The notes beneath the pieces were generated by a model, which saw only the letters and a program-made list of their open reading frames with translations, made no database searches and was not told where the DNA came from. From positions 1 through 64,000 of the forward strand of contig JAHHIE010000003.1 in assembly GCA_019358945.1 (NCBI GenBank): DNA of 64,000 bases, written 5' to 3'. Positions 5,083 through 18,739 of the stretch are shown here, one piece after another. The stretch is from Stenomitos rutilans HA7619-LM2. GTDB lineage: Bacteria > Cyanobacteriota > Cyanobacteriia > Leptolyngbyales > Leptolyngbyaceae. How positions within the stretch are numbered: position 1 is the stretch's first letter; every line of letters starts with the position of its first letter. The position numbers and the translations under genes are program-made.

Positions 5083-5194
5083 AAGAAGGAATGCATTGCC
5101 ATGCAGTGCTGTTAGAGAGCTTTACATTGCGGCGGCTCTGTCACCATGACTGTTTAATTGGTATGAGAACCCAGTTAACGGAGGCGTGACGGCA

Positions 5195-5743
5195 ATGACT
5201 GACCATCAACTCATTTTGGTGACAGGCCCTGCGCGATCGGGCAAAAGCGAATGGGCAGAAACCCTCGCAAATTGCTCTGGTAAGACAGTCATCTACGTAG
5301 CAACGGCTCAAACTGATCTCACCGACCATGAGTGGCAAACACGCATTGAGCAGCATCGTCAGCGCCGCCCATCCACGTGGCAGACGCTGGCTATCCCGAT
5401 CGCTTTGGCCGAAGCGATTCAATCTGCACCACCCAACAGTTGTCTGTTAATCGATTCCCTGGGCACCTGGCTTGCTAACCTTTTAGAGCAAGACGAAGCC
5501 ACCTGGAGCAAAACTGTACGCGAGTTGCTAAGCAGTTTGCATCATGCCACCAGTGATGTCATTGTGGTCGCTGAAGAAACAGGTTGGGGTATTGTGCCTG
5601 CCTACCCCATCGGACGAGTCTTTCGCGATCGGCTTGGCACACTCGCTCGCCACATTGGTGCGATCGCCCATCCGGTCTATCTTGTCACCGGGGGGCACGT
5701 CCTGAACCTGAGTACCCTGGGAACACCGCTAAAAACAGATTAA
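5195..5743 (+). CDS. cobU: Adenosylcobinamide kinase / adenosylcobinamide-phosphate guanylyltransferase CobU
   Basis: This bifunctional cytoplasmic enzyme phosphorylates adenosylcobinamide and then transfers GMP to it in nucleotide-loop assembly of the B12 or pseudo-B12 cofactor. The 182-residue product has the P-loop GPARSGKS at 11-18, the DSLGTWLANLL segment and the EETGWGIVP motif, all typical of CobU/CobP. The frame extends to a GTG at 5186, but CGGAGG at 5179-5184 is too close to that codon and well placed for the ATG at 5195. It stands alone between repeat-rich spacers; no other cobalamin gene is in the window. Confidence 0.93.
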   Translation: MTDHQLILVTGPARSGKSEWAETLANCSGKTVIYVATAQTDLTDHEWQTRIEQHRQRRPSTWQTLAIPIALAEAIQSAPPNSCLLIDSLGTWLANLLEQDEATWSKTVRELLSSLHHATSDVIVVAEETGWGIVPAYPIGRVFRDRLGTLARHIGAIAHPVYLVTGGHVLNLSTLGTPLKTD

Positions 5744-12892: not shown

Positions 12893-13564
12893 TTACCAGA
12901 TATAAAGCAGGGAAAACAAAATAACCCAGATACCATCGACAAAGTGCCAGAACAAAGTGGTCGCACTAACCCCAAAGTGACCGCTGTTGTAGTTACCTCG
13001 GATAAACGATCGTCCCAGTATAATCACTTGCAAAATGACACCGCTCAGAACGTGCAACCCATGAAAGCCTGTCAATATGTAGAATGTTGCACCTATCAAT
13101 CCGGTTCGCAAGCCAAAATCAAGCTGACTCCATTCAATTCCTTGACCGATCAAAAAATAAGAACCCATCAAGATCGTCATCAACCATAGCCAGCGAAATT
13201 TAACCAGATGATGGCGACTGAGCGATCGCTCTGCCAGTTGAATCACAACACTGCTAGAGAGCAGAATGATCGTATTGAGGATGACAAATGTAGATCGTTC
13301 TGGCCCCGTTATTCCAGGGGGTAACCATTCAGAAGCTGTTAGTCGCAGAACAATGTAGGTAAAGAAAAAACTGAGAAAAATAATGCTTTCGGATAACAGA
13401 AAAACCACCACCCCAAACATTCCTTTGCCATGATGGTCTTCGTGGCTCCCGCCTCCACTGGGCAGAAAACGCCGCAACCAGGGGGGAAACTTTTGCCGTA
13501 ACCGTTCCAGGTCGATCGGGCTTTCATCAACGTGAATCGGTTTGGGCTGCGGTGAGCTACTCAT
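12893..13564 (-). CDS. ctaE: Haem-copper oxidase subunit III (ARTO-type operon)
   Basis: The 223-residue membrane protein has about five to six helices with the SESIIFLSFFFTY segment (conserved Glu of the subunit III lipid pocket) and GFHGLHVLSG near the C-terminus, typical of cytochrome oxidase subunit III. The start ATG at 13564 overlaps the 3' end of ctaD by 8 bp (ATGAGTAG), showing translational coupling. A longer frame to 13624 lies inside ctaD and is not credible. It is the last gene of the terminal oxidase operon whose subunit II lacks CuA. Confidence 0.92.
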   Translation of the reverse strand: MSSSPQPKPIHVDESPIDLERLRQKFPPWLRRFLPSGGGSHEDHHGKGMFGVVVFLLSESIIFLSFFFTYIVLRLTASEWLPPGITGPERSTFVILNTIILLSSSVVIQLAERSLSRHHLVKFRWLWLMTILMGSYFLIGQGIEWSQLDFGLRTGLIGATFYILTGFHGLHVLSGVILQVIILGRSFIRGNYNSGHFGVSATTLFWHFVDGIWVILFSLLYIW

Positions 13565-15230
13565 TAGAAACGTCTTCTCCTGATTGTGTTGCAGAAGCTT
13601 CACCGTAGGCTTTGGGATTGCCATAGTTATAGGGTGGAAAGATCACCTGAGGAATCTCAATAAAATTTTCTCTGGGAGGTGGCGAGGAGGTTGTCCACTC
13701 TAATCCGGTAGCTTGCCAGGGGTTATCAACGGCTCTACTGCCCGCCAGTACAGAACCGACCATATTAGCGATAAACGGTAGAGTTGAAACGCCTAATAAA
13801 AAGGCTCCTAAACTGGCGATGACATTCCACCCCTGGTATTCGGGCGGATAAGAGGCAACCCGCCGTACCATGCCCTGTAAACCCAGTGGGTGCATTGGGA
13901 AAAACGTCAGATTTGCTCCAATAAACGTTAGCCAGAAATGTAGTTTGCCCCAGCCTTCGGCATACATTCGTCCAGTGATTTTAGGGAACCAGAAATAGAT
14001 GGCGGCAAAGATTGCCATTGTGATGGTATTGAACACAATGTAGTGAAAGTGCCCCACTACAAAGTAGGTGTTATTGACATGTAAATCAAAGGAGTTAGCC
14101 GCCAGCATTACCCCTGTAATGCCACCCAAAATAAACATGGCGGCTCCTGCCATTGCAAATAGCATGGGCGTATCTAGATGCAATTTACCCCGCCAAATCG
14201 TGGCAGTCCACCCTAAAGCTTTAACTCCGGTCGGCACAGCTACCAGCATTGACGTAATCGCAAAGGTGATTCGCATCCAATCAGGAGTCGCGCTGGCAAA
14301 CATATGATGAACCCAGACAAAGATACTGACAGCCGCAATGCCTAAAGAGGCGATCGCTAATGAACGGTAGCCAAACAAAGGATTGCGGGCAAAGGCAGGC
14401 AACACTTCAGCAAAAATGCCAAAGGCAGGCAGTGCCATAATGTAAACCGCAGGATGGGAGTAGAACCAGAACAAATGCTGGTAGAGAACGGGATCGCCTT
14501 GTTGAGTCGGGTTGAAGATATTTGTACCGAAAGCAAGGTCAAATGTCAGCAGGATTAATGCGCCTGTTAGGGAGGGTAGGTTGATCAGTTGCAGCAGTTG
14601 AGCACTGAGAACCGACCAGACAAAGATAGGTAGCCGAAAAAAGGTCATTCCCGGTGCACGGAGCCAGACGATCGTCGTCACAAAGTTCACGGCACCCATG
14701 ATGGAAGAAATGCCAAGCAAAATCAGACTGATAATCCAAACGAGTTGACCAGAGGGGTTTTGTAGGCTCACAGGTGGATACGACCACCACCCCGCCTGCG
14801 CTGGACCATTGGGCAGTAAAAAGCTGGCAATTAGCAAAATGCCAGCGGGGGGAATCAGCCAGAACGAAATGGCATTCAGCAGCGGAAACGCCATATCTCT
14901 CGCCCCAATCATTAAGGGCACCAGATAGTTTGACAACCCTGCATTGAAAGGAATGATCCATAAAAAAATCATCACCGTTCCATGCAGCGTAAAGAGAGCG
15001 TTGTAGAGAGGACGATCGACCAGGTTTAACTCAGGGGTGATCAGTTCTGCCCGCACGAGCATCGCCATCAATCCACCGATCAGAAAAAAGATAAAGGTAG
15101 TGAGGATGTATTGCACCCCAATCACTTTGTGGTCAGTGCTGAAGCGAAAATAGTCCCGCCAATGGCGATCGATGGGTTGATTTAATTCAATCCCACCTGA
15201 ATCATCAGGCGAGATCGCAGGATTCGTCAT
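13557..15230 (-). CDS. ctaD: Haem-copper oxidase subunit I, YSHP (A2-like) type
   Basis: The 557-residue catalytic subunit carries the expected ligands: His83 (haem a), His259 with cross-link Tyr263, His308/His309 (CuB), and His394/His396 in VVGHFHY. K-channel Lys337 (PTGVK) and D-channel entry Asp112 (GARDMAF) are present. The usual GHPEV of A1 oxidases reads YSHPAVY here, so the proton-channel Glu is absent and a Tyr-Ser pair takes its place, the A2 hallmark. It reduces O2 to water in the cytoplasmic or thylakoid membrane. ATGA overlap with the upstream subunit II stop shows coupling. Confidence 0.95.
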   Translation of the reverse strand: MTNPAISPDDSGGIELNQPIDRHWRDYFRFSTDHKVIGVQYILTTFIFFLIGGLMAMLVRAELITPELNLVDRPLYNALFTLHGTVMIFLWIIPFNAGLSNYLVPLMIGARDMAFPLLNAISFWLIPPAGILLIASFLLPNGPAQAGWWSYPPVSLQNPSGQLVWIISLILLGISSIMGAVNFVTTIVWLRAPGMTFFRLPIFVWSVLSAQLLQLINLPSLTGALILLTFDLAFGTNIFNPTQQGDPVLYQHLFWFYSHPAVYIMALPAFGIFAEVLPAFARNPLFGYRSLAIASLGIAAVSIFVWVHHMFASATPDWMRITFAITSMLVAVPTGVKALGWTATIWRGKLHLDTPMLFAMAGAAMFILGGITGVMLAANSFDLHVNNTYFVVGHFHYIVFNTITMAIFAAIYFWFPKITGRMYAEGWGKLHFWLTFIGANLTFFPMHPLGLQGMVRRVASYPPEYQGWNVIASLGAFLLGVSTLPFIANMVGSVLAGSRAVDNPWQATGLEWTTSSPPPRENFIEIPQVIFPPYNYGNPKAYGEASATQSGEDVSNE

Positions 15231-16153
15231 GAATCACCCTCCTGAACTTCAGTAGATTTTGCAACGGCTTCAACCGCTTTGGAACTCCATCTCGCTTTAA
15301 AGAGTGTCTTGGGTGGATGCAGTTGTTCCGCAATCACTGAATTAATCTCATCAATGGGCTGTTGAGCGATCGCAACAAGCCACTGATTGTAAGCTTCTCT
15401 CGACTCCACATAAACATCTGCTTCCATGAGTGCAAAGTAGGTGCCGCTATACTGTGAGTCTTGCAAGCGATATTTACCGATACGATTAGGCGTCACCACC
15501 AAATCAATATCACGTTTAGGAATCATGTCTTGCTTGAGGCGAAAAGCAGGCACATAAAAGCCATGAATCACCGCTTCTGCCTGTAAATCTAGTCGAGTAC
15601 GTTCATTCACAGGCAAATGTAGTTCATGACTAACGGCTTGATTGGGGTAGCGAAATGTCCACTTCCATTGCGTCGCTATCACCTGAATTCGCTCGTCAGC
15701 GGGTTTGGGGGTATCTGAAGCAGCATTCGGAGACTCTACTGAGGCAGCGTGGGCTGGGGCTTCTAGGGGAAGCTGAACGATTTGTTTAAGTCCCAAAATA
15801 TTGAGTTGGCTGTAAATATTAGTATTTTGAAAAGCGATCCACAAGACGAGCAGCGTTGGAGCGGCTGTCCAGAGAATTTCTAGTTTGACGCTGCCTCTAG
15901 AGGGATGTCCTTCACTGTAGTCATCCGGTTTTGCTCGAAAAAACAGGGCAGAGTAGAGCATCATTCCCACCAGCCCCAGGAAAATAAACATACCGACTGA
16001 CACCAAAAAGCTAAATAAGGTGTCTACCCGCTGTGCTTCTGCGGTTGCTTGGGGTGGCATCCAGGTATAAGCTTGTTGCCCCATCCAATGACTGATGAGC
16101 ATTGCTCCAGCAATCAAAATAGTCAGTAAAAAGTATTCGAGGAACTTTAACAT
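15227..16153 (-). CDS. ctaC: Oxidase subunit II lacking the CuA site (ARTO / quinol-oxidase-like)
   Basis: The 308-residue product has two N-terminal membrane helices and a cupredoxin domain. Canonical CuA ligands align as follows (numbered from ATG 16153): the first His is kept (His197 in VIHGFYVP) and the Met is kept (Met243), but both Cys are Asp232 and Ser236, the Glu is Gln234 and the second His is Phe240. A CuA centre cannot form, so electrons are unlikely to arrive from cytochrome c or plastocyanin. This is the known signature of cyanobacterial ARTO, thought to use quinol. A GTG six codons upstream (16171) is an alternative start. Confidence 0.93.
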   Translation of the reverse strand: MLKFLEYFLLTILIAGAMLISHWMGQQAYTWMPPQATAEAQRVDTLFSFLVSVGMFIFLGLVGMMLYSALFFRAKPDDYSEGHPSRGSVKLEILWTAAPTLLVLWIAFQNTNIYSQLNILGLKQIVQLPLEAPAHAASVESPNAASDTPKPADERIQVIATQWKWTFRYPNQAVSHELHLPVNERTRLDLQAEAVIHGFYVPAFRLKQDMIPKRDIDLVVTPNRIGKYRLQDSQYSGTYFALMEADVYVESREAYNQWLVAIAQQPIDEINSVIAEQLHPPKTLFKARWSSKAVEAVAKSTEVQEGDS

Positions 16154-16694: not shown

Positions 16695-16946
16695 TTACCG
16701 GATAAAAGCAAAAGACACTATCACACATAAGCTGAGAACCAATGCAGTGATCAAAGCGTGTTCAACCCGACGACTAAAGAACCCAACGATCGCGGCGATA
16801 CATGCAACCATTAGCAACAGTCCAACGTAAATAGCAAATTGCCCACCATGATCGATAGTGGGATCATTTTGAAGACCAGAAGGAGACCGTAACGCGGTTG
16901 GATCAGGTAAAGGAGCATCCGCGAGTAGAGCGCTAAAGTTGATCAT
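16695..16946 (-). CDS. Small membrane protein in the ARTO cluster
   Basis: The 83-residue product has a polar N-terminus (PLPDPTALRSPSG) and two hydrophobic helices at about 37-55 and 62-81, separated by a basic turn SRRVEH. I recognise no family. It lies 27 bp after the second DUF2231 gene on the same strand and upstream of the oxidase genes, so it is probably co-transcribed with DUF2231. A role as accessory subunit or assembly factor of the oxidase is inferred from position only. Confidence 0.6.
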   Translation of the reverse strand: MINFSALLADAPLPDPTALRSPSGLQNDPTIDHGGQFAIYVGLLLMVACIAAIVGFFSRRVEHALITALVLSLCVIVSFAFIR

Positions 16947-16973: not shown

Positions 16974-17609
16974 TCACTTGTTGAACAGTCCGTACTCTTG
17001 TCCAGACGGCAGTTCATGAGTTGAATTTCCTCCTTGTCTTAACTGATGCACTGCCGTATTGTGAATCCCAAACTCATCGCCCAATTGTGCCCCTAAGGTT
17101 CCATGCAAATAGAGTGCTCCTAGTAAAACAACACCTACCAGCAAGTAACTCCACTGCACTTCTCTAAGACGATCTTTTCGCCAGCGATAGCGCTGTGCTC
17201 CTCGCCATAAAGCCATTCCAGCGATCGTTGCTAACAATGCAATGCCTCCCAATCCATGCAGCAACATGGTTGACTTGGCATCCAGGCCCCAACCGCTGAC
17301 TCGATCGGTGGGTGGAGTGGCTAACATCAGTTCAAAGAATCCGACTGCAACAGTAAAAAAGGTGATAATCGCTGCCCCTAACAAGTTGTACCAACCCACT
17401 TCATAAAACCCTGCACGAATGGCAGGAAGCGCTAAAAATTTGAAGATGGGTCTTCCCAACGGAAACAGCGTTCCAGCAATGTCAAAGATTACTGCAATGA
17501 TGAGCAGTCCTAATGTTAGGTGAACAAGTTGAGGATGAATGGGGATAGGGTAGGGCAGTCCATTTGCTCCCAGCTTTAATCCAGGTAGATTCAAGAGTAA
17601 GAGTATCAT
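16974..17609 (-). CDS. DUF2231 membrane protein (211 residues)
   Basis: The product has about five membrane helices and the DUF2231 signature near the N-terminus: GLPYPIPIHPQLVHLTLGLL, with conserved HPxxVH. The C-terminal half adds a helix pair and a polar tail. The start ATG at 17609 overlaps the stop of the upstream DUF2231 gene by 4 bp (ATGA). A longer frame to 17669 lies within that gene and is not used. Histidines on the membrane side could ligate haem or metal, but this is not shown. Location beside ARTO genes suggests a redox partner. Confidence 0.85.
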   Translation of the reverse strand: MILLLLNLPGLKLGANGLPYPIPIHPQLVHLTLGLLIIAVIFDIAGTLFPLGRPIFKFLALPAIRAGFYEVGWYNLLGAAIITFFTVAVGFFELMLATPPTDRVSGWGLDAKSTMLLHGLGGIALLATIAGMALWRGAQRYRWRKDRLREVQWSYLLVGVVLLGALYLHGTLGAQLGDEFGIHNTAVHQLRQGGNSTHELPSGQEYGLFNK

Positions 17610-18100
17610 TTCAAAAGCCCCTGTCGAGTTGCCTCTACTACAGGTTCTACATGCAGCCCATACACCCAAACAAGTTGACTACCCAGCATCATTTGAAAAA
17701 AGATTAGACAACTTAGAAGCGTTGTAAATCCTAAATAGAGCGGAGAAACTCTTAAAGGACTTTGATGGCGCATGGCAAAACGCCAAGCCGTAATAATGAC
17801 TAAAAAAGCCGCTAAAGACCATCCCATGACCGTATGTAAACTAAGCGTTGATTGGGCCTCTGCTTGAGGTTCTGCTAAACCTGCTTCAAATTGACCAAAA
17901 ATAACTGCAAGAAAAATAGAAATGGCAGCAACGATTAAGTTCCAAAAACTAACTTCAAACAAACGAGGTTTATGAGCAAAGTAACCTAACACATCGCACA
18001 CAAACGAACAAAACACCATTGCAATCACAAAGTGAACAATGATGGGGTGAATCGGATCAGGGTAAGGAAGCCCCTGCTGATTAAGCGATAAATGAAACAT
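17606..18100 (-). CDS. DUF2231 membrane protein (164 residues)
   Basis: This second DUF2231 member has four to five membrane helices and the same N-terminal pattern (GLPYPDPIHPIIVHFVIAM). It and the next gene overlap by ATGA, so they are translationally coupled and may form a heteromer. Paired histidines (IHP, IVH, LHT) resemble possible cofactor ligands; that is inference. It is the first gene of the minus-strand group leading to the oxidase. A tandem 24-bp repeat lies 67-114 bp upstream of its start. Confidence 0.85.
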   Translation of the reverse strand: MFHLSLNQQGLPYPDPIHPIIVHFVIAMVFCSFVCDVLGYFAHKPRLFEVSFWNLIVAAISIFLAVIFGQFEAGLAEPQAEAQSTLSLHTVMGWSLAAFLVIITAWRFAMRHQSPLRVSPLYLGFTTLLSCLIFFQMMLGSQLVWVYGLHVEPVVEATRQGLLK

Positions 18101-18214: not shown

Positions 18215-18739
18215 CGGCATAAAAGGTATCTATCTCTTTAGAGATGTTTAGAAATACGGAGAAGTCAAAAGAGTTCAAGCAAGCCGACGCAGCATGAGGT
18301 GAATCATCGCAAGGTGAATGAGTGCCTCTGAGGCAGTAGGCAGTCGCTTATAATCGACGTTGAACCGACGACACCAGTGCAGCCAACCGTGAGTCCGCTC
18401 CACCATCCACCACTTAAGCAGCAGCAGGAAGCTTTTTGCGCCATCAGGATGCAGCACGACCTCGATAATTCGATCGTTCGGTCTGGCTGCCTTTCTTTAC
18501 CGTCTAGTCTAAACTCTAGACGGGATCAACGCTTTGACTCTCATGACAATACTCCTGATAGAACCCAATCGTTTTAAGCAAAGGGAACACACGCTGTAGG
18601 CAGAAAAACCGAAGAAGGCATGGGTAATGGGGACGGGGGATGGGTTAGAAGTCGCAAAGACGAGTGAGCATCGCTACATTGAAAGCTCCCTTCAGTTCTG
18701 CCTTTTACCTTTTGCCCTTTACCTTTTGCCTTCTTCCCC
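18215..18739. other. Spacer with IS remnant, hairpin and heptamer tract
   Basis: Besides the transposase remnant, the spacer holds an 8-bp-stem hairpin at 18500-18523 and a pyrimidine-rich tract at about 18700-18735 built of TTTTACC/TTTTGCC/CTTTACC words. That tract is another of the short heptamer repeats and ends next to the following gene's stop codon. Confidence 0.45.
18275..18457 (-). pseudogene. IS5-type transposase C-terminal remnant
   Basis: About 60 residues remain: the end of a DDE transposase with WWMVERTHGWLHWCRRFN, then DYKRLPTASEALIHLAMI and the terminal MLRRLA. This is the C-terminal catalytic Glu region of IS5-family (IS427/ISL2-like) transposases. Upstream the frame is interrupted by stops and there is no DDE N-terminal part, so the copy is dead. 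A hairpin CCGTCTAG/CTAGACGG lies at 18500-18523. Confidence 0.8.

Follow-up and report, generated by a model that had tools for sequence, protein, structure and literature searches.

The CuA-less alternative respiratory terminal oxidase of Stenomitos rutilans and a tandem DUF2231 gene pair as its candidate electron entry

Cytochrome bo3 (CyoABCD) has a subunit II without CuA and takes quinol as its electron donor; archaeal SoxABCD also has a CuA-less subunit II, and there a membrane cytochrome b is thought to hand quinol electrons to the oxidase. The alternative respiratory terminal oxidase (ARTO) of cyanobacteria shares with bo3 a subunit II without CuA, and the subject of this paper is one such oxidase, encoded in Stenomitos rutilans HA7619-LM2 within the first 64,000 nucleotides of contig JAHHIE010000003.1 (assembly GCA_019358945.1), a stretch that we call the window. 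Its genes stand behind a tandem pair of genes for DUF2231 membrane proteins, A and B, and the best explanation of the evidence as a whole, put forward tentatively from sequence comparison, is that this pair would serve as the quinol-side electron entry to ARTO.

In the available excerpts of the literature, PMC6616624 treats ARTO as a bo3-type enzyme in which plastoquinol reduces haem b directly, parallel to bo3, PMC9313322 labels it as quinone oxidising and PMC9342982 as a bo-quinol oxidase, while in PMC7796093 plasma-membrane respiration is debatable in its details and the legend to Figure 1 of PMC11771661 marks some of its drawn pathways as not experimentally verified. An earlier reading of this DNA (the original prediction) held that the donor is still debated. 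The operon listing in PMC6616624 gives the Anabaena ARTO genes as alr2729-alr2730-coxB3-coxA3-coxC3.

The subunit II gene of the window, ctaC (15227-16153, minus strand), is an intact open reading frame of 308 amino acids with its ATG at 16153; the original prediction had the right coordinates and missed the strand, the plus strand of the same interval being broken up by many stops in translation. The protein passes the Pfam cut-offs for both COX2_TM (39.4 bits against 22.8) and COX2 (38.7 against 22), and its metal-site loop reads Y-R-L-Q-D-S-Q-Y-S-G-T-Y-F-A-L-M. Relative to CuA-type proteins the two Cys are replaced by D232 and S236, the Glu by Q234 and one His by F240, with H197 and M243 retained, whereas the CuA-type cyanobacterial rows carry C, E, C, H and M at these positions in 65 of 65 cases (65 of the 78 CuA-type genes described below, the COX2 of seven genomes outside Cyanobacteriia being excluded). 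The alignment therefore bears out the earlier claim that the Cys pair, the Glu and one His have gone, and the window protein is without the CuA ligands of an aa3 subunit II.

The same replacement is found across 59 CuA-less rows, made up of 36 from a draw of 116 genomes of the phylum (window CtaC included) and 23 from a search for related loci, with at least one gene doubled (genome G051 is locus L187) and the short CtaC of locus L207 excluded. H197, D232, S236 and F240 are each present in 59/59, Q234 in 54/59 and M243 in 56/59, and because the replacement is nearly fixed, the loop is re-specified and held and has neither decayed nor drifted at random. With these residues ARTO cannot use CuA to accept electrons, whether from plastocyanin or from cytochrome c6. 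The original prediction that cytochrome c oxidation is unlikely thus holds for the CuA route, which the sequence excludes. By another route, cytochrome c6 or plastocyanin might feed the low-spin haem directly, or by way of a different metal bound where CuA was, since His197, Asp232 and Met243 remain. The near-constancy of those three residues would suit such a route, as would the retention of R481/R482 and W280 in subunit I, yet the two bridging Cys and a His are lost, Trp200 (65/65 in CuA rows) has become Tyr or Phe in ARTO, and the Mg-site pair, positioned between CuA and the active centre, is Asn-Asn, so that we consider it very unlikely.

Subunit I, encoded by ctaD (13557-15230, minus strand, 557 amino acids, overlapping ctaC by 4 bases), was compared with other rows by alignment with E. 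coli CyoB, whose numbering is used here. All 32 ARTO rows keep H106, H284, H333, H334, H419, H421 and Y288, together with K362, D135, N124, N142, R481, R482 and W280; with haem, CuB, D-channel and K-channel residues present, the subunit is by its sequence equipped for O2 reduction. None of the four residues of the bo3 quinol site is found in any of the 32 rows, R71 being V or I, D75 being F, L or M, H98 being V, L or F, and Q101 being G, A, S or V. Among 74 CuA-type rows R71 and D75 are likewise absent and Q101 occurs in 29, and H98 is absent among the 70 of these rows shown; since the CuA-type COX1 rows are also without R71 and D75, the state in ARTO is ancestral and not a special loss. E286 is Ala in 32/32 ARTO rows and in 68/74 CuA-type rows. 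The Mg-site pair H411-D412 behaves differently: in ARTO the two positions are N in 30/32 and N in 32/32, and N-N is also found, 4/4 at each position, in four unlinked ARTO copies, whereas the CuA-type rows have H in 70/74 and D in 69/74. Judged by these alignments, loss of CuA and loss of the Mg-site pair travel together. The name 'bo3-type quinol oxidase' is therefore an analogy for which support from sequence is absent, because ARTO subunit I has neither the bo3 quinol residues nor the Mg-site pair.

DUF2231 (PF09990) was found in 43 of the 116 genomes, COX2 in 60 and COX1 in 62. The 104 DUF2231 matches resolve into 40 tandem pairs and 24 singles, where the singles include two matches under the Pfam cut-off (one in G002, one of those in G011) and the pairs include that of G053, which is not near an oxidase, has an A protein without H23 and was excluded from the residue counts given below. 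Of the pairs 36/40, and of the singles 0/24, have an oxidase gene on their own strand no more than 6 kb away. The 114 COX2 genes comprise 36 that are CuA-less and 78 with both Cys, and a pair adjoins 32 of the former as against 0/78 of the latter; the four exceptions are the genes of G067, G071 and G084, members of one family in which the pair and the oxidase genes are dispersed, and a gene of G051, a genome with two CuA-less genes. By genome, the 53 Cyanobacteriia divide into 30 with ARTO, all 30 of which have a pair, and 23 without, of which 21 have no pair and the remaining two have both a pair and CcoNO. Fisher tests, which take no account of shared ancestry, return 3e-24 for loci and 8e-13 for genomes.

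Eleven further genomes, chosen and not drawn, were added. All six congeners among them combine a pair with one or more CuA-less genes; of their CuA-less genes (nine confirmed, one unclassified) a pair adjoins 7/9, and the two unpaired genes sit in one 700-contig assembly. A pair stands beside 0/11 of the CuA-type genes in this set, the four genomes with CuA-type genes only contain no DUF2231, and in G135 the pair is beside CcoNO. The 23 named loci found from the window CtaC, of which 19 are at 59-79% identity, show a pair in 17 cases. Kin came to light in Phormidesmis, Oculatella, a Trichormus variabilis plasmid and several Nostoc, while CtaCII of Synechocystis and of Anabaena PCC 7120 was not among the sequences retrieved. 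Plasmid-borne ARTO clusters with DUF2231 were seen in 'Nostoc azollae' (pAzo01, L215) and in Trichormus variabilis ATCC 29413 (plasmid A, L217), where the cluster is followed by a GMC oxidoreductase gene and cydAB.

The pair is not confined to ARTO. A search of 388 genomes of the class gave nine CcoNO clusters, and in four of them (G000, which is the window genome, G033, G102 and G135) a pair lies 3' of ccoO. This arrangement has the CcoN and CcoO of a cbb3-type CcoNOP oxidase, followed here by DUF2231 A and B, and it differs in that the three screened genomes with such clusters (G000, G033 and G102) have no CcoP. CcoP (FixP) is the cytochrome c-receiving subunit of cbb3. The FixP screen covered the 116 genomes, with G135, G161, G234, G252 and G295 outside it, and FixP was found in none of the Cyanobacteriia among them and in five genomes of the phylum outside that class, none having a DUF2231 pair. 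Absence of FixP alone does not track the pair, because G035 is without both. The idea that the pair serves every cyanobacterial CcoNO was rejected on the count of 4/9.

A second association is with NDH-2. Within one subfamily, defined as 16 genes at or above 400 bits, 10/16 have a pair no more than 4.6 kb away, on one strand or the other, the distance being within 0.8 kb in seven cases, and the remaining six are on contigs without a pair; among about 125 other matches of the NDH-2 search, one is within 5 kb of a pair (checked by eye save four). In G067 and G084 the NDH-2 gene adjoins the pair though the oxidase is elsewhere, and two loci have tight same-strand runs, ccoN-ccoO-A-B-NDH2 in L221 and NDH2-A-B-ctaC in L223. 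No such gene was seen adjoining the window ARTO, the nearest being beside the second ARTO copy of the genome on contig C48. The CcoNO and NDH-2 links are less tied to ARTO ancestry than are the locus counts.

Protein A (17606-18100, minus strand, 164 amino acids) starts the run, and protein B (16974-17609, minus strand, 211 amino acids) overlaps it by 4 bases; they score 134.9 and 121.1 bits against a DUF2231 cut-off of 26.4. In the oxidase-type copies A keeps H18, H23, E72, H89, Q136, W145 and H150 in 39/39 and B keeps H25, H30, E93, H118 and H183 in 39/39, while H169 of B is present in 35/39 and is Gln in the remaining four, three of which are CcoNO-linked. Aligned with A, the one unlinked DUF2231 protein that the window genome encodes keeps H18 and is without H23, Q136 and H150, with H89 falling in a gap; aligned with B, it keeps H25, H118 and H183 and is without H30 and H169; and it has Asp at E72/E93. 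Because the unlinked protein keeps some of these residues, the His set is partly family-wide and partly special to oxidase-linked copies.

The predicted models of A and B (mean predicted local distance difference test scores of 78.5 and 71.3) have four membrane-length helices each, with the conserved His placed in or near them. Lys plus Arg counts are highest in loops 1 and 3 (1.8 and 3.1 for A, 3.1 and 3.6 for B, with other segments at 0.1-1.3), and by the positive-inside rule the His set is therefore predicted to lie on the periplasmic or lumenal (P) side, the side on which oxidation of quinol would take place. Profiles of A and B matched no PDB sequence at E values up to 1. Comparing the predicted folds with Foldseek yielded nothing at E 0.001. 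VIA-align returned generic four-helix bundles (designed proteins too), oxidase subunit III and cytochrome b561, and bundle scores may reflect nothing beyond the common arrangement, so that the comparison neither points to a haem family nor speaks against one. In the open literature searched, no published function of DUF2231 and no paper joining it with 'cytochrome oxidase' was found, and in the excerpts available alr2729 and alr2730, which by position may correspond to A and B, occur solely in the operon listing or in expression tables, where they are a 'hypothetical protein' or 'putative membrane protein'. In one comparison alr2729 to alr2732 are jointly about fourfold down (PMC7065334, as excerpted), a co-lowering that gives weak support because the coxB2-A2-C2 genes drop too. 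A natural A-B fusion suggested by frame length in G074 was dropped, since a stop separates the two frames.

Conserved His and Glu sets of this kind could hold metal or haem for delivery, and CuB and haem are needed by ARTO and CcoNO alike, so the pair might be an assembly or haem/copper insertion factor that carries no electrons in turnover, a role that would also fit the pairs that are at times unlinked from an oxidase. We regard this as improbable: CuA-type oxidases in these genomes depend on the same cofactors and yet a pair stands beside 0/78 of them, and an insertion factor would not be expected to associate with NDH-2.

In the preferred reading, with the DUF2231 pair as the quinol-side entry, the electrons of ARTO most likely come from the plastoquinol pool and not through a bo3-type quinol pocket, the residues of which are absent. 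Tandem A and B would form a membrane module on the lumenal or periplasmic side that binds a cofactor or quinol, touches the oxidase and carries electrons, either oxidising quinol itself or relaying its electrons, perhaps by way of haem b held on the invariant histidines, and passing them to the low-spin haem of subunit I; the remodelled CuA domain would act as a scaffold, and an NDH-2, whose gene in several genomes stands next to the pair, would deliver the quinol. SoxABCD would be an analogue that works in a similar way, with no homology claimed, since SoxC is a bc1-type cytochrome b and not DUF2231. A wider form of the proposal, in which tandem DUF2231 is an unrecognised electron-entry module feeding two unrelated classes of haem-copper oxidase, ARTO and one kind of CcoP-less cyanobacterial CcoNO, from the quinone pool, encoded in some genomes in a single run with NDH-2, is possible and is held with more reserve; there the chain may run from NAD(P)H to quinone, to DUF2231 and on to the oxidase.

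Several observations weigh against an electron-entry role. Since ARTO forms a single clade, the linkage counts lack independence and largely record one old linkage that has been kept. Six of the 23 named loci (L187, L188, L190, L191, L193 and L201) show no pair in the stretch examined, which for L190 covers just about 1.8 kb upstream, and for all six a pair elsewhere in the chromosome is possible, L187 being G051, a genome with two pairs. Intervening genes set the pair 3.9-6.9 kb off at L185, L186 and L189, and a plasmid-borne pair of Gloeothece verrucosa PCC 7822 (L216, 9001-10112) is without an oxidase gene in the 9 kb covered. Five of the nine CcoNO clusters (G035, G161, G234, G252 and G295) have no pair at that place and a shorter CcoO frame, and four of these genomes are without any DUF2231, G035 having one unpaired gene. 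Finally, the absence of the bo3 residues is inherited and shows only that ARTO is without a bo3-type pocket.

The six pairless loci also suit an oxidase that is self-contained, in which plastoquinol would bind a pocket in subunits I/II away from the bo3 site and the DUF2231 pair would be an accessory. ARTO is treated as a quinol oxidase in the three papers cited above (PMC6616624, PMC9313322 and PMC9342982, in their available parts), and the fixed, re-specified CuA loop could hold a new role. The bo3 residues are nevertheless missing in 32/32, and a self-contained enzyme leaves unexplained the pair in 30/30 ARTO genomes as well as the CcoNO and NDH-2 links; we judge it rather unlikely. Such an unrecognised quinol site and the assembly role considered above are the main rivals to electron entry through DUF2231.

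As to its class, the window oxidase is by sequence a type-1 ARTO, an A-type haem-copper oxidase, and is not new in kind; the original assignment to ARTO is supported by the subunit II signature, the intact subunit I, the gene order and the position in the tree, though besides the strand it overlooked the second ARTO, the DUF2231 pair and the absence of the quinol site. Like the type-1 enzymes of Anabaena and of Synechocystis (CtaII), it has a CuA-less subunit II of the COX2 family, an intact subunit I and a subunit III, and its ctaC-ctaD-ctaE have two membrane genes ahead, as in the Anabaena order, where two such genes precede coxB in the available listing of PMC6616624. It differs from these in having an 83-amino-acid gene between the DUF2231 pair and ctaC. 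In a quick tree without bootstrap the ARTO subunit I sequences form one clade of 37 rows (Shimodaira-Hasegawa-like approximate likelihood ratio test value of 100), with the window protein in a 5-row subclade and the other copy of its genome, on C48, in a 27-row subclade. The tree excludes the CcoN rows and most COX1 rows of genomes outside Cyanobacteriia, and the sister group of ARTO is unsure because long branches meet where it joins its neighbours, a point on which the program gave a warning.

E. coli CyoB is distant from ARTO in that tree, and bo3 further differs from ARTO in R71, D75, H98 and Q101 (each lacking in 32/32) and in E286, for which ARTO has Ala; the NCBIfam models CyoA (61.1 bits against a cut-off of 266.2) and CyoB (440.7 against 1020.35) both fail. 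The nearest relative in the subunit I tree is the cyanobacterial aa3 oxidase (CtaC-D-E with CuA), which has the same proton-channel residues and differs in its CuA ligands and Mg-site H-D pair, both replaced in ARTO; here too the NCBIfam models fail, CoxB at 121.5 against 147.7 and CtaD_CoxA just under at 666.9 against 670.75. COX1 genes without a nearby COX2 occur in G055, G041, G063, G094 and G082 (L179-L183), and where in the tree they group with the CuA type.

The run in the window is transcribed in the order DUF2231 A, DUF2231 B, the 83-amino-acid gene, ctaC, ctaD and ctaE. The small protein (16695-16946, minus strand, 83 amino acids) has two hydrophobic stretches and no assigned family; its relatives occupy the same position in L071/L207, L185, L186 and L189 and lie 3' of ctaE in Nostoc loci, and in the roughly 540 bases between its gene and ctaC no clear gene was seen. 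Subunit III is encoded by ctaE (12893-13564, minus strand, 223 amino acids), which overlaps ctaD by 8 bases and matches Pfam COX3 at 110 bits, scored on a longer open frame. Promoter-like (9 against 9.5) and terminator-like (9 against 8.5) sites are at chance level, and the window holds no Rfam family above threshold and no tRNA that was found. At L186 a gene for a four-helix bundle copper-binding protein (5149-5502, by eye) lies between the small gene and ctaC, and a gene of the same description is close to the DUF2231 pair of L216.

The window genome has four COX1 genes, a CuA-type aa3 (contig C64), two ARTO (C48 and the window, C93) and a CcoN (C8), and seven DUF2231 genes in three tandem pairs and one unpaired copy, one pair standing beside each ARTO and one beside ccoN-ccoO. 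The second ARTO cluster (L015 on C48, 1616-6325), which belongs to the larger subclade, has DUF2231 A-B, a CuA-less ctaC, ctaD and ctaE, and its NDH-2 gene (82-1161) is on the opposite strand. The CcoNO cluster (L017 on C8, 3531-7401) runs ccoN, ccoO and then the pair, without ccoP, and its protein B has a C-terminal extension of about 100 amino acids that is likewise present in G033 and G102. With two ARTO copies present, the one in the window could be a decaying second copy without function. Upstream of the run (18280-18540, minus strand) a remnant resembles, by eye, the terminal part of an IS5-type transposase, and G051 carries a related copy (L071/L207, contig C15) that is broken, with CtaC and CtaD short and the DUF2231 A-B and small genes apparently whole; against decay, all six window genes are complete and open, the catalytic residues are kept and relatives at the identities given above are found in 19/23 named loci, and the idea is hardly credible.

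Three things are new here: ARTO has none of the bo3 residues, DUF2231 pairs are linked with two classes of oxidase as well as with NDH-2, and A and B carry the His set. If ARTO indeed has neither CuA nor a bo3 quinol pocket, its electron donor becomes a real question, to which the DUF2231 pair is a candidate answer. Should CcoNO be served by it as well, the module would act as an adaptor through which cytochrome c oxidases come to be fed by quinol, and such a role, if true, would be the first function for the DUF2231 domain.

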